A DNA stretch of 64,000 nucleotides from Oceanimonas doudoroffii (lineage in GTDB: Bacteria; Pseudomonadota; Gammaproteobacteria; Enterobacterales; Aeromonadaceae): positions 1,240,001 to 1,304,000 of the forward strand of contig NZ_NBIM01000001.1 of assembly GCF_002242685.1 (NCBI RefSeq), given 5' to 3'. The position numbers and the translations under genes were made by a program. Shown here in pieces: positions 31,363 through 59,881 of this stretch (position 1 is its first letter; each line of letters opens with the position of its first letter). The notes below the pieces were generated by a model that was not told the origin of the DNA, did not search any database, and saw only the letters and a program-made list of their open reading frames with translations.

Positions 31363-31545
31363 TTTTCCCTGGGGTGTTCGTCAGTGAGTGGCGTCCCTGA
31401 GCCGATATCAACAGCACAGGAATCCCGCGTTGCTCGCTATTGAGCATGCTCGGCCTCGACCGAGACGCCTGCGGCGGGTACCGGGCTTCCGCCTTGAACC
31501 GACGGGTTCAAGGACTAACACTCGCAACGGCACTCTGGGGACCCC
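31363..31545 (+). ncRNA. ssrS: 6S RNA (SsrS)
   Basis: 6S RNA binds the housekeeping RNA polymerase by mimicking an open promoter and lowers transcription in stationary phase. The stretch between zapA and the next gene contains the conserved blocks TCCCTGAGCCGATAT, GAGCATGCTCGG, CCTTGAACCGACGGGTTCA (a hairpin) and closing arms CCCTGGGGTGTTCG and CGGCACTCTGGGGA that pair with each other. Length of about 183 and location match E. coli ssrS. The ends are placed by comparison and may be off by a few bases. Confidence 0.93.
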
Positions 31546-39978: not shown

Positions 39979-40881
39979 ATGAAGATCGCCATTCTTTCCC
40001 GCAATCCCTCGTTGTATTCCACCCGGCGCCTGCAGGCAGCCGCCGAGGCCCGGGGCCACGAGGTCAGCATCATCGATGCCCTGCGCTGCTACATGAACAT
40101 TAACGACAACAAGCCCTCCATCCATTACAAGGGGGAAGATCTGGCGCATTTCGACGCCATCATTCCCCGCATTGGCGCCTCGGTCACCTTTTACGGCACC
40201 GCCGTATTGCGCCAGTTTGAAATGATGGGTTGCTACACCCTCAACCACTCGGCGGCCATCAGCCGCTCCCGGGACAAGCTGCGCTCGCTGCAGGTGCTGT
40301 CGGGCCACGGCGTGGGCATGCCGATCACCGGCTTTGCCAACAAGCCCGACGACGTCCCCGATCTGATCGACATGGTGGGCGGCGCCCCACTGGTGATCAA
40401 GCTGCTGGAAGGCACCCAGGGGATTGGCGTGGTGCTGGCGGAAACCCGCAAGGCGGCGGAAAGCGTGCTGGAAGCCTTTATGGGCCTCAAGGCCAACATC
40501 ATGGTGCAGGAATTTATCGAAGAAGCCGGCGGCGCCGACATTCGCTGCTTTGTGCTGGGTGACAAGGTAATCGCCGCCATGAAACGCCAGGCTCAGGAGG
40601 GCGAATTTCGCTCCAACCTGCACCGGGGGGGCGAAGCGCGCCTGGTGCGCATTACCCCCGAAGAGCGCAAGACCGCCATCGCCTCGGCCAAGGCCATGGG
40701 CCTTCAGGTGGCCGGGGTGGATCTGCTGCGCTCAAAGCGTGGCCCCCTGGTGATGGAGGTCAACTCATCCCCCGGCCTGGAAGGCATTGAAAGTGCCACC
40801 GGCAAGGACGTGGCGGACCTGATCATTCAGCACATCGAAAGCCATGCCCATCGCAAACCCCGTCACCGGGAGCGTGGCTGA
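39979..40881 (+). CDS. rimK: ribosomal protein S6 glutamate ligase RimK
   Basis: RimK is an ATP-grasp ligase that adds glutamate residues to the C-terminus of ribosomal protein S6. The 300-residue product has ATP-grasp motifs [33 protein letters not shown] and the metal site [14 protein letters not shown]. The start [18 protein letters not shown] matches the family. It overlaps the next gene by one base. Confidence 0.94.
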
Positions 40882-41900
40882 TGAGAGCGACTTTTGAACT
40901 CGCCGGCCAGCATGTGGCTCCCGGCCGCCGCCAGACCATGCAGCTGGCCCTGGCCCAGCTCTATACTCAATCGCCACTGACGGTGCCGGTAGAAGTGGTG
41001 CACGGCAAACTGCCGGGCCCGGTGCTGCTGCTGTGCGCCGCCATTCACGGCGATGAGCTCAACGGCATTGAGGTGGTCAACCAGGTGCTGGCCAGGATCA
41101 ACCCGGCCCGCCTCAGAGGCACCCTGGTAGCGGTGCCCGTGGTCAATGTGTTCGGCTTTATTCACAAGTCCCGCTACCTGCCGGACCGGCGCGATCTCAA
41201 CCGCTGCTTTCCCGGCTCGGAAAAAGGCTCACTCGGCGCCCGGGTTGCGCACTTTTTCGTGAATGAGATCGTCAGCAAGTGCAGCCATATTATCGACCTG
41301 CACACCGGCGCGATTCACCGCAGCAACCTGCCCCAGATTCGTGCCCAGCTTGACTGTCCGGTCACTCGGCAAATGGCGGAGAGCTTTGGCGCGCCCATTA
41401 TTCTGGATGCCAGCATTCGCGACGGCTCCTTACGCTCGGTGGCAGAGACCCAGGGGGTGCCGGTGATCCTCTATGAGGCCGGCGAGGCGCTGCGCTTCGA
41501 CCCGCTGCCGATCAAGGCCGGGGTGCGGGGCGTGCTCAGGGTGATGCGCACGCTGGGCATGCTCAGGGCCACCACCGCCAAATCCGTGACCGAACCCATT
41601 ATCGCCCGCGCCAGCACCTGGATTCGAGCCGAGCACGACGGCCTGCTGCACCTGAAAGTGCGCCTGGGAGAGCGCATTCGCAAGGGGGACTGCCTGGGCA
41701 CCATCACCGCCCCCCTGGGCACGGAAAACCGGGATATCATTGCACCGCGCAGCGGCATTGTGATCGGCAGCCTGACCATGCCCCTGGTCAATGAAGGCGA
41801 CGCCATCTGCCATATTGCCCTGTTTGACGAGATCAAACAGGCGGAGAAAACGGTGGAACGCTTTGTGGACGAGTTGGATGTACAGACGCCGGCCATGTAG
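40881..41900 (+). CDS. succinylglutamate desuccinylase/aspartoacylase-family zinc hydrolase
   Basis: The 339-residue protein has the zinc-ligand motif AAIHGDELNGIEVV (His and Glu) and the third ligand in IIDLHTGA, plus a C-terminal barrel-like domain (HLKVRLGERIRKGDCLGTI). Family enzymes hydrolyse amide bonds of N-acyl amino acids. Its translational coupling to rimK suggests a link with glutamate tail handling or with a related metabolite. The substrate is unknown. Confidence 0.86.
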   Translation: MRATFELAGQHVAPGRRQTMQLALAQLYTQSPLTVPVEVVHGKLPGPVLLLCAAIHGDELNGIEVVNQVLARINPARLRGTLVAVPVVNVFGFIHKSRYLPDRRDLNRCFPGSEKGSLGARVAHFFVNEIVSKCSHIIDLHTGAIHRSNLPQIRAQLDCPVTRQMAESFGAPIILDASIRDGSLRSVAETQGVPVILYEAGEALRFDPLPIKAGVRGVLRVMRTLGMLRATTAKSVTEPIIARASTWIRAEHDGLLHLKVRLGERIRKGDCLGTITAPLGTENRDIIAPRSGIVIGSLTMPLVNEGDAICHIALFDEIKQAEKTVERFVDELDVQTPAM

Positions 41901-41923
41901 TGCATGGCCCGCTATCACCAATA

Positions 41924-42366
41924 GAAAAGGGGCAGCCACCGGCTGCCCCTTTTGATGTCGTCGGCTCGTTCCTGAACCTGATTGCTCCCTGCAATCCCTG
42001 ACCTGACTCCTCCGAGTCTTCCTCTTTCCCGTTCCATCGGGCTCGTCCCTGCATCTTCCATGAATGGCCGCCGTCCTGCTGCCAACCGCTTCTTCCTGAA
42101 GGTATCCCTGATCTTCCTGACCTGTTCCACTTGGCCTTCATGGCCGTGTCCCTTGCCATTCCTGGCTGCCGGCATCCTGCCTGCACCGTCTTCCCCGATT
42201 CCTTTCTTCACACCTTCCGTGTTGGTGTGTCCTGTGAGCCTTCCTGCTCGCTGCCTTCCCGGCAACTCAGCCTGCCTTGCTGTTGGTATTCATCATATCC
42301 TTTCCCCCGGCCGACACAATGCGGTGGGCAGGTTCACGCCTCTGCTTGAAATTCAACCTGACAACA
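41924..42366 (-). ncRNA. csrB: CsrB-like regulatory RNA (CsrA sponge)
   Basis: Read on the minus strand, the region contains about 26 GGA motifs in roughly 400 bases, many as CAGGAAG, CAGGATG, CAGGGA or AAGGA. Several lie in hairpin loops, for example GATTGCAGGGAGCAATC (41980-41996) and CTTCAGGAAGAAG near 42095. It ends in a strong intrinsic terminator. This is the architecture of CsrB/CsrC, which titrate the translational repressor CsrA. A TATAAA box at 42374-42379 puts the start near 42366; the 5' end is an estimate. Open frames in this region are accidental. Confidence 0.88.
41925..41953. terminator. shared terminator of the hydrolase gene and the CsrB-like RNA
   Basis: GGGGCAGCC (41929-41937) and GGCTGCCCC (41941-41949) form a nine-base stem with a three-base loop, flanked by AAAA and TTTT. 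It works in both directions, ending the plus-strand hydrolase transcript and the minus-strand RNA. Confidence 0.92.
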
Positions 42367-42373
42367 AAAATTC

Positions 42374-42379
42374 TTTATA
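42374..42379 (-). promoter_or_regulatory. candidate -10 box of the CsrB-like RNA
   Basis: TATAAA on the minus strand, in an AT-rich stretch just before the GGA-rich region. No convincing -35 is found 17 bases upstream, consistent with activator-dependent transcription. Confidence 0.5.
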
Positions 42380-42443
42380 TTCATAAACTTACAACGAATT
42401 TCCGCCAAAATCCATATATCAAAAGCGCCTTTTCCATGCGTGC

Positions 42444-42461
42444 CTTGAGAGATCGCTTACA
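42444..42461. promoter_or_regulatory. candidate UvrY/GacA binding site upstream of the CsrB-like RNA
   Basis: CTTGAGAGATCGCTTACA matches 15 of 18 positions of the inverted repeat that I recall for UvrY at E. coli csrB (TGTGAGAGATCTCTTACA). It is about 80 bases upstream of the predicted start, a plausible activator position. Confidence 0.6.
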
Positions 42462-42587
42462 GGGAGCGGGGGTAAATCAGGAAGGGGAATCATCAGTCGC
42501 CCCAGAGATAATGGTCGTTTGGCGCCGAATACCACGGACTCACGACCCAAAGGCAGGCTGGCGTATGGATAAACAGCGGTATTACAA

Positions 42588-42616
42588 ATAAAAAATGCCG
42601 GGGCAAGCCCGGCATG
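42588..42616 (-). terminator. terminator of the thr operon
   Basis: ATGCCGGG (42595-42602) and CCCGGCAT (42608-42615) form an eight-base stem with a T-run on the minus strand, just after thrC. Confidence 0.9.
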
Positions 42617-42638
42617 GTGATATGGCAAGCGGTTCGCC

Positions 42639-43913
42639 TCAGCCCATCATTTTCGCCTTGAGGGCGGCAAAGTCGGCGGGAATGGTCTCGGACAGGGATT
42701 CCATGGCGCCGTGCTTGGCCAGCGGGCCCGGCAGTTCAATGTCCTGCTCCAGAATGCGGTCCACACTTTCCTTGAACTTGGCCGGATGAGCGGTACACAG
42801 GAAGATGCCCACTTCGTCCTTGCCGCGCTCCTTGTTGAGCAGATCCCAGGCGATGGCGCCGTGGGGCTCGCACAGGTAGCCCTTGGCAAACAGCCGCTTG
42901 AGGGCGTCCTGGGTTTGCTCATCGTTAAGGGCACCGGAAGCGATATCAGAAAGACTCCAGCCCTTGACCCGGCACAGCTCTTCCACCCGCGGCCAGTTGT
43001 TGGGTCGGCTCACGTCCATGGCGTTGGACAGGGTGGCCACGGTGGCCTGCGGATCCCAGTTGCCGCTTTCCAGGTAACGCGGCACGGTGTCGTTGGCATT
43101 GGTGGCGGCCACAAAGCGCTTCACCGGCAGGCCGATGGCCTTGGCAATCAGACCGGCGGTCAGGTTGCCGAAGTTACCGGACGGCACGCAGATCACCGCC
43201 TTGTTGCGCTGCTCGGCGGGCAGCTCGGCCACGGCTTCAAAGTAGTAGCACACCTGGGCCAGCAGACGGCTGATGTTGATGGAGTTGGCGGAATTCAGGC
43301 CCACGGCGGCCTTCAGCTCTTCGTCGTCAAAGGCGTTCTTGACCAGCGCCTGGCAGGCGTCAAAGTCACCCTGCACCGCAAAGGTGCGAATGTTGCCACC
43401 CAGGGTGGTGAACAGCTTTTCCTGCAACGGGCTGATTTTGCCCTCGGGGTAGAGGATCACCACTTCGATATTGGGCAGGCCGTAGAAGGCGTGGGCCACG
43501 GCGGCACCGGTGTCGCCGGAGGTGGCGGTCAGAATGGTGATCTTGCCTTCACTGCTCAGGGTGGCCAGGCACTGGGCCATAAAGCGGCCGCCAAAGTCCT
43601 TGAACGCCAGAGTCGGGCCGTGGAACAGCTCCAGGGCGTAGGTGTGCTCGTCCACCTTCACCAGCGGCGCCGGAAAGGTAAAGGCGTGCTCCACCATGGC
43701 GGTGAGGGTGTCCTTGGGAATTTCGTCACCGATCAGATGCTGCAGTATGGCTACCGAGCGGGGCACCAGCGGCTGCTCCAGCAGGGCGTCAACGTTGGCA
43801 AGCGGGCTCAGGTTTTCCGGAAAGAACAGGCCCTGGCCCCGGCCCAGGCCCTGCTTGACGGCGCCGGCAAAATTGATGGTCTCTGCATTATCCTTGATGT
43901 TGTACAACTTCAT
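42639..43913 (-). CDS. thrC: threonine synthase
   Basis: ThrC converts O-phosphohomoserine to threonine using pyridoxal phosphate. The 424-residue protein has the PLP lysine Lys105 in [14 protein letters not shown] and the phosphate loop [11 protein letters not shown]. The start at 43913 gives [19 protein letters not shown], the family N-terminus; it overlaps thrB by four bases. Last gene of thrLABC. Confidence 0.96.
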
Positions 43914-44866
43914 AGCTTGGTTCCTGTGACTCGCGCGCCTTCGGCGTCGAGTTTGCAAATATGGCAAAAGCCATCCTGATTCTGAATAAAGTGGTCGGCC
44001 AGCCAGGCCTTGAGTTTTTCCGCCTGATGCAGATCCTTCATCACCGTAAACACGGTGGGGCCACTGCCGGAAATGCCGGTGGCCAGGGCCCCCATGGCGG
44101 CGGCGTGCTCACGCACTTCCTTAAAGCCGGGGATCAGCTGGGCACGATAGGGCTCGGCAATCACGTCCTTGAGCATGGCCGCAGCCACCTGCTCCTGACC
44201 GGTGTGGCTGGCGTGCACAAAGCCCGCCAGGCGACGACCGTATTCCAGGCAGTCCTGACGGCGGTACTGGGCCGGCAGAATTTCCCGGGCGGCAGAGGTA
44301 GACACGGCGATGCCGGGGTAACACACCACCCAGTACCATTCTTCAAAGGACGGCAGGGTCTGGCTGACCACACCGGCTTCGTCCAGCACCAGTTGCATGC
44401 CGCCCAGGTGACAGGGTGCCACGTTGTCGTAATGCACCGAGCCGGAGATTCGCCCTTCCAGCTCACCCATCAGCAGCATCAGCTCATGCTCGCTCATGGC
44501 GTTATCGTAAAAGGCGTTCAGGGCCACAAAGGCGGCCACTATGCTGGTGGCGCTGGAGCCCAGCCCCGAGCCCACCGGCAGGTTCTTTTCCAGGGTCATG
44601 GTCAGCGGCTTGCGCGCCAGGCCCTTTTTGTCGAGCGCCTTTTCATAGGACAGCCAGCAATCGTAAACGATATTCTGGGTGTAATCGTCCGGCAGCTTGT
44701 GGGCATAGGGACCGGCATTGGTAAGGTAAAAATCGCCGCTGGCGTTTTCCACCAGCACGCGGTCCCCCAGCAGGGAGCCATCGAGGGGGGCCAGCGCGGC
44801 CCCCAGTACATCAAACCCAACACTGACGTTGGCGGTAGAGGCCGGCGCGTAGGCTACAACACTCAT
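43910..44866 (-). CDS. thrB: homoserine kinase
   Basis: ThrB phosphorylates homoserine. This GHMP kinase of 318 residues has the ATP loop [11 protein letters not shown] at about residues 97-107, the N-terminal [16 protein letters not shown], and the C-terminal [12 protein letters not shown]. It starts directly after the thrA stop. Confidence 0.96.
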
Positions 44867-53197: not shown

Positions 53198-53467
53198 TTA
53201 ACGACGCAGGCCCAGCTTTTCGATCAGGGCACGGTAGCGCTCTACGTCTTTGCGCTTCAGGTAGTCCAGCAGGTTACGACGCTGGGATACCATGCGCAGC
53301 AGGCCGCGGCGGCTGTGGTGATCGTGGATGTGCTGCTTGAAGTGGCCCTGCAGGTGGTTGATCTGGGCGCTCAGCAGAGCTACCTGCACTTCGGGAGAGC
53401 CGGTGTCGCCTTCGCCACGGGCGAATTCGGCAACGATCTGGGCTTTGGTTTCAGCATTTAGTGACAT
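53198..53467 (-). CDS. rpsO: 30S ribosomal protein S15
   Basis: S15 binds 16S rRNA early in assembly. The 89-residue protein starts [20 protein letters not shown] and contains [17 protein letters not shown] and DHHSRRGLL, diagnostic of uS15. The start at 53467 is fixed by family alignment. The 114-base leader between truB and rpsO may hold its autoregulatory pseudoknot. Confidence 0.97.
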
Positions 53468-53581
53468 GGTGTCTACTCCAAATAACATGAATGAATTCCA
53501 GCCGATCACTAATTCAGCCGGAAGGAAGCACGGCATTCTACCAGCAACGCCGCGCTTGGCAACCTGAAATGCGCGCTAAAT

Positions 53582-59722: not shown

Positions 59723-59742
59723 AAAAAAAGGGCTCGCAGCCC
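59723..59742 (-). terminator. second leader terminator of the rimP-nusA operon
   Basis: GGGCT (59730-59734) and AGCCC (59738-59742) form a five-base stem followed on the minus strand by seven T. The T-run is strong but the stem is short. It lies between the initiator tRNA and rimP. Confidence 0.6.
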
Positions 59743-59790
59743 AGTTTAAATATGCATCGCCAAACCGATGCCAAAGTCCAGATAACAAAA

Positions 59791-59814
59791 AGCCCCGATA
59801 TTCAAATCGGGGCT
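59791..59814 (-). terminator. first leader terminator after the initiator tRNA
   Basis: AGCCCCGAT (59791-59799) and ATCGGGGCT (59806-59814) form a nine-base stem with TTTTTG on the minus strand. It ends transcription of the tRNA, with read-through into rimP-nusA-infB. Confidence 0.9.
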
Positions 59815-59881
59815 ATTCACCTGGACCCTGATTGTCGCCTCGCAGCGACCATTCATCGTGAGCAGACGATGAACGTGAAAT

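Follow-up and report, generated by a model that had tools for sequence, protein, structure and literature searches.

The CsrB RNA of Escherichia coli contains 22 GGA triplets, most of them described as CsrA sites, and in the established Csr scheme phosphorylated UvrY drives the RNA, which sequesters CsrA dimers (PMC7652899). The E. coli csrB box, TGTGAGAGATCTCTTACA, is centred at -183/-182 and is reported to be bound by UvrY (PMC4682653). Vibrio genomes are described as having two to four csrB copies, among them V. cholerae CsrB/C/D and V. tasmaniensis csrB1-4, which lie at conserved loci and are attributed to duplication (PMC6262261, PMC6550530). In Pseudoalteromonas fuliginea, three RNAs per genome (Pf1, Pf2 and Pf3) were identified from their GGA counts, promoters and terminators; Pf1 and Pf2 are reported as having no matches beyond the genus, and Pf2 and Pf3 are those described as tested (PMC11882849). 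Shewanella CsrB1 and CsrB2 combine GGA motifs with an upstream UvrY/GacA box, TGTAAGN6CTTACA (PMC3171408). Our search of the open-access literature returned no csrB in Oceanimonas and, among the matches listed, none in Oceanisphaera, Zobellella or Aeromonadaceae.

Here, we have analysed a 64,000-nt stretch of Oceanimonas doudoroffii DNA (GCF_002242685.1, NZ_NBIM01000001.1, positions 1,240,001-1,304,000 of the forward strand), hereafter the window, to whose numbering the coordinates refer. An intergenic locus within it very probably represents a third csrB gene ("csrB3"), encoding a BarA-UvrY-activated non-coding RNA of ~364 nt that would titrate CsrA beside two sister RNAs. Like E. coli CsrB/RsmB (RF00018), the predicted RNA has many loop GGAs, an intrinsic terminator and a far-upstream palindrome with a GATCTCT core, as described in PMC4682653. 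It differs from E. coli CsrB in scoring under the Rfam gathering cut-off, in being a third copy located 3' of thrC, and in the imperfect right arm of its palindrome (CTCAAG for CTTACA). A putative IHF site is described for E. coli csrB, whereas no IHF-like site with up to one mismatch was found at the Oceanimonas copy.

The several copies and conserved loci recall the Vibrio sets, the three RNAs per genome those of P. fuliginea, and the GGA motifs with an upstream box the Shewanella pair. However, the Vibrio sets belong to a different lineage and come with expression data, the P. fuliginea RNAs were examined by promoter fusion, gel shift and glycogen assay (PMC11882849), and the two Shewanella genes are near neighbours whose expression and UvrY dependence are proven (PMC3171408), whereas the Oceanimonas copy is predicted from sequence. 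Since multi-copy csrB sets are known in vibrios and P. fuliginea, the Oceanimonas RNA would be a further member of a familiar class; its novelty lies in the locus, the lineage and the position under the Rfam gathering score.

A GGA-rich intergenic region downstream of thrC

The initial annotation had pointed to about 26 GGA triplets on the minus strand of a gene-free stretch. The 738-bp gap between thrC (stop at 42639) and a convergent desuccinylase/deacylase-like gene (stop at 41900) is indeed without genes, and positions 41924-42366 hold exactly 26 GGAs on the minus strand and none on the plus strand, including the hairpin GATTGCAGGGAGCAATC it had singled out (41996-41980). The locus is intergenic and, by its sequence features (Table 1), appears to be non-coding, with its own predicted promoter and an intrinsic terminator. 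The desuccinylase-like gene (ATG at 40881), whose product has its nearest named relative in O. marisflavi (96% identity), is overlapped by a gene read as RimK-like, the pair spanning 39979-41900 on the plus strand.

Table 1. Predicted features of the thrC-linked csrB-type locus and its neighbours
Feature	Position	Strand	Basis or remark
Predicted CsrB-type sRNA, third copy	41922..42285	-	~364 nt, 24 GGA; ends predicted from promoter and terminator
RF00018 match	41919-42201	-	Covariance search
Intrinsic terminator hairpin and U-run	41925..41953	-	Sequence; helix 12 of the consensus fold
Predicted -10, TATGAT	42292..42297	-	Orthologue alignment
Predicted -35, TTGTGT (3/6 consensus bases, 16-nt spacer)	42314..42319	-	Orthologue alignment
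Conserved element AAAAGGCGCTTTT	42421..42433	-	17-row alignment
UvrY/GacA-type palindrome TGTAAGCGATCTCTCAAG, 18 bp	42444..42461	-	Oriented alignment; E. coli csrB counterpart as given in PMC4682653
Terminator-like hairpin 3' of thrC, between thrC and the sRNA	42595..42615	-	Generic terminator/promoter scan
thrC, threonine synthase; upstream neighbour in 17/17 orthologous loci	42639..43967	-	
Desuccinylase/deacylase-like gene; convergent neighbour, beside 7/17 loci	40881..41900	+	

In dinucleotide shuffles of the minus strand of 41924-42366, the mean GGA count was 18.5 (sd 2.8), and 26 or more were reached in 15 of 2000. CAGGA occurs eight times on this strand, against a shuffled mean of 2.0, with 2 of 2000 shuffles as high. 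Among 443-base tiles of the window, the best minus-strand tile, at this locus, had 27 GGAs, the next non-overlapping one 15 and the best plus-strand tile 14. Thus, the GGA excess reflects partly a purine-rich composition and is partly motif-specific.

The CsrB-like RNA within the earlier interval held up, but its extent did not, as the predicted 5' end lies ~80 nt further in. Because the predicted promoter falls inside that interval, two of the 26 GGAs (42305 and 42300) lie upstream of the predicted start.

Covariance searches

Besides two tRNAs, the window contains three RNAs that score above the Rfam gathering thresholds, 6S RNA (31363-31545, +), the S15 leader (53411-53525, -) and the rimP leader (59723-59847, -); at these thresholds no family matched the CsrB-like locus. 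When RF00018 was run against 841 bases with an E-value threshold, it matched the locus with 41.2 bits (E = 9e-10). The Rfam search proposed in the initial annotation thus gave a match (E ~1e-9), but one that missed the gathering score of 71 bits, which is a threshold curated for annotation and not a biological property. Long parts of the model remain unaligned, as does the 5' quarter of the predicted RNA, and the mean alignment accuracy is 0.63.

Across the whole genome, RF00018 returned three matches: one of 84 bits (C4:151143-151453), one that barely attains the cut-off with 71.0 bits (C5:180653-180954) and the window copy (41.2 bits, genome-wide E = 1.0e-9). With stricter filters, the two sister loci of the same genome were reported and the window locus was not. 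The permissive genome-wide search also matched 8 of 14 control genomes at E ≤ 10, only E. coli exceeding the cut-off. The stricter search listed, among its matches, 7 of the 17 thrC-linked loci described below, one of them over the cut-off; the other 10 were below the listed ranks or lost to the filters. At the thrC locus of genome G012, the orthologue reached 76.1 bits and so exceeds the cut-off. A distant-mode search of a plasmid collection gave no match to the locus. As the Rfam score is under the cut-off, the CsrB conclusion rests mainly on the orthologues, the promoter and box, the structure and the paralogues.

Orthologues share the position 3' of thrC

When 61 genomes were searched at the DNA level, 26 of them yielded matches, and the long matches were confined to the same GTDB genus. 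Counting the window's genome, 17 of 23 genomes of this genus have a copy downstream of thrC, on the same strand. The predicted RNAs at these 17 loci measure 282-416 nt and carry 19-28 GGAs each. For each of the 24 window GGAs, a GGA was found within three columns in 11-16 of the 16 aligned RNAs (the window's own included).

The downstream side is more variable. The desuccinylase-like gene was found at 7 of the 17 loci, a gene read as acyl-CoA thioesterase II at 6 of the other 10, and at the remaining 4 only an antisense frame was kept. The desuccinylase-like gene was tried as a synteny anchor and discarded: with 80 of 310 relatives kept, the sRNA and thrC occurred at 4 of the 80 named loci, all in Oceanimonas, because the conserved neighbour is thrC.

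Six genus genomes had no match. In four of them (G004, G010, G014 and G017), thrC is present and no such RNA lies in its downstream flank, which indicates that the copy is dispensable in some lineages; G008 and G022 yielded no thrC match at 1e-80 or better, which left no position to inspect. We have also surveyed 26 thrC loci from 28 genomes, other genera included, of which 25 are informative (the L158 contig ends 39 bases past thrC). None had a GATCTCT-type box, and no flank exceeded 10 same-strand GGAs in 300 bases. In one flank (L155) the short motif GCAGGGAGCA occurs, but no GGA cluster accompanies it.

Predicted promoter, UvrY-type box and terminator

A generic scan of 41700-42700 reported no promoter, and the prediction comes instead from the orthologue alignment. 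The -10 reads TATAGT in 11 of the 17 loci and TATGAT in the window. The centre of the palindrome TGTAAGCGATCTCTCAAG lies ~167 bp upstream of the predicted start in the window, and 165-167 nt upstream in 17/17 loci; as the start was assumed 7 nt past the -10, this constancy is that of the box-to--10 distance. In all 17 loci, the best match to the E. coli palindrome sits at this fixed place. In the 3.83-Mb genome, the pattern TGTNNGNGATCTCTYA has three occurrences, one before each csrB, and its reversed control has none; since the pattern was derived from these three loci, what is informative is that the rest of the genome lacks it.

The box is followed, after ~10 bp, by the element AAAAGGCGCTTTT, in which GA-n-AA-nn-CG-n-TT is invariant across the 17-row alignment. 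The element is also present at the genome's own copy A and partly at its own copy B (the paralogues described below), and is perhaps a second activator site.

The strong intrinsic terminator noted initially was found as AAAAGGGGCAGCC-GGT-GGCTGCCCCTTTT (41953-41925). The generic terminator scan did not list this hairpin, probably because the U-run was counted into the stem. In the consensus fold it forms a helix of 11 pairs with 100% of cells paired over 16 RNAs. With its A-run and T-run, the palindrome could also stop transcription of the plus-strand desuccinylase-like gene.

That the RNA follows thrC in 17/17 loci would fit an sRNA derived from the thrC 3' UTR, or a base-pairing sRNA of the thrC region, in which the GGAs are incidental. 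However, thrC has its own terminator-like hairpin, the sRNA has its own conserved predicted promoter and UvrY box, and a similar architecture recurs at two unlinked csrB loci. Such an origin is therefore extremely improbable. A third csrB gene explains these features better, even though the -35 matches only three of the six consensus bases, the generic scan found no promoter and some shuffles reach the GGA count.

RNA structure and covariation

The minus strand of 41920-42376 (457 nt) folded at -161.7 kcal/mol, with a z-score of -4.5 relative to 100 shuffles. RNAalifold was applied to 16 of the 17 RNAs, excluding L011, which lacks ~80 nt, and returned 63 pairs; 54 local pairs were analysed and 9 long-range pairs dropped. 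Over the 864 cells (54 pairs × 16 RNAs), 97.7% were paired. Twenty of the 54 pairs had changed on both sides, versus 8.2 ± 1.6 in shuffles (0/500 as high). Sliding by 1-3 columns reduced this number to 3-6, a control biased in favour of the structure, which was derived from the same alignment.

In the window RNA, GGAs had a mean predicted unpaired probability of 0.80, compared with 0.63 for GAG/AGG triplets, some of which overlap GGAs, and 0.46 for bases overall. The probability exceeded 0.5 for 19 of the 24 GGAs, and several GGAs lie in loops of covarying hairpins.

The 17-row alignment bears on the possibility that the region is a protein-coding gene on one strand, for which four open frames might be invoked: 41915-42265 (-, 116 aa), 41833-42186 (-, 117 aa), 41982-42386 (+, 134 aa) and 42131-42349 (+, 72 aa). 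All begin with TTG or GTG. The first is stop-free with a length divisible by three in 1 of the 16 other rows (L006). The second, in its covered part (41908-42186), is intact in 2 of 16 (L011, and L019 without a start codon), and both plus-strand frames in none. A few other rows have no stop but lose the phase (L007 and L019 for 41915-42265; L006 and L010 for one plus-strand frame each). With frames that break in the 17-row alignment and substitutions that come as compensatory pairs, the frames were rejected as genes, and we give a coding function almost no credence.

Paralogues and the Csr circuit

In the genus, copy A is adjoined by genes read as rsmD and sseA at 22/22 loci examined, copy B by a dacA-like gene at 20/20 loci, and the thrC-linked RNAs form copy C. 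In a tree of 58 RNAs, group C (17 rows) lies on one side of a 98/100 branch, which 96% of the 200 bootstrap trees contain. The branch that sets off group A (22 rows) has 100/99 support, and group B (17 rows) was not resolved as one. Five of the six genomes without copy C cluster in the A part together with G011, which has it, which favours loss over a late gain; midpoint rooting served for drawing only, and G008 is absent from the tree. The initial annotation had suggested a lineage-specific version of CsrB, with which the orthologue search, the thrC-flank survey and the separate clade agree.

The genome encodes one CsrA (119.4 bits; NCBIfam cut-off 73), UvrY (423.1 bits; cut-off 280) and BarA (1224.7 bits; cut-off 890). 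UvrY was over the cut-off in 23/23 genus genomes. BarA was matched in 23/23, over the cut-off in 21 and partially in two, where the matches end at model positions 566 and 582. Loss of uvrY or barA was thereby ruled out as the reason for the missing copies; copy C can be lost while BarA-UvrY is kept. The anatomy, homology, conservation and covariation of the locus, like the presence of csrA, uvrY and barA, are read from the genomes themselves.

Copy C might instead be a decayed, non-functional csrB duplicate that is still GGA-rich: its Rfam score is below those of both sisters, the branch to group C is longer than that to group A, it is missing in some genomes, and in G013 it is cut to 282 nt. 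Yet the box and promoter, the spacing between them, the GGA positions, the stems and the terminator are all kept across 16-17 genomes, and 20 of 54 pairs have changed on both sides, a pattern that points to purifying selection. We regard decay as very unlikely. Rather, the CsrB-like RNA first proposed from the GGA pattern is corroborated by the RF00018 match, the two further CsrB loci, the UvrY-box pattern confined to the three csrB loci, the 17 orthologues 3' of thrC with covarying stems in 16, and the presence of csrA, uvrY and barA.

Proposed mechanism and implications

BarA would phosphorylate UvrY, and UvrY-P would bind the palindrome at 42444-42461 and activate the promoter at 42292-42319. 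RNA polymerase would then produce a non-coding RNA of ~364 nt, ending at the terminator at 41925-41953. Its 24 GGAs, mostly predicted to be single-stranded, would bind many CsrA dimers and keep CsrA off mRNAs, in addition to what the sister RNAs from the other two loci take up. That the RNA is transcribed, that UvrY binds the palindrome and that CsrA is sequestered are predictions here, as is any effect on carbon flow or lifestyle.

A third copy would complete the Csr circuit of this environmental genus group. Annotation at the Rfam gathering score can undercount CsrB copies, and a deletion study confined to the two copies that reach it would leave one sponge at work. The 17 genomes with the copy and the at least four without it at this locus form a natural series for asking what an extra sponge buys.

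Differences among copies

Three orthologues, L016 (G015), L018 (G006) and L019 (G019), carry a mid-RNA insertion that adds a GGA-bearing hairpin. It reads GTTACAAGGAGTAAC in L016 and L018, and its left part is repeated threefold in L018. Gain of hairpin modules may be a way in which CsrB RNAs grow.

Between box and promoter, no IHF-like site with up to one mismatch was found at the genome's own copies A or C. Copy C shares with copy A the lack of the site seen at sister copy B (L004), where a perfect match to the IHF consensus (AATCAATCACTTG) lies between box and RNA. Its restriction to copy B suggests that the copies are regulated differently. The thrC-linked copy could conceivably be a subfunctionalised CsrA sponge, long separate and regulated in its own way, through which the genus group would respond to a signal ignored by both sister copies; we consider this tentative reading rather unlikely.

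The region upstream of copy A also varies. In L197, L213, L206, L217, L224 and L208, which belong to a subclade mostly without copy C, it has no GATCTCT palindrome and contains forms such as TGTAAGAGATCCGCC or TGTGAGACATTGGCC. These forms resemble the weak E. coli csrC repeat as quoted in PMC4682653.
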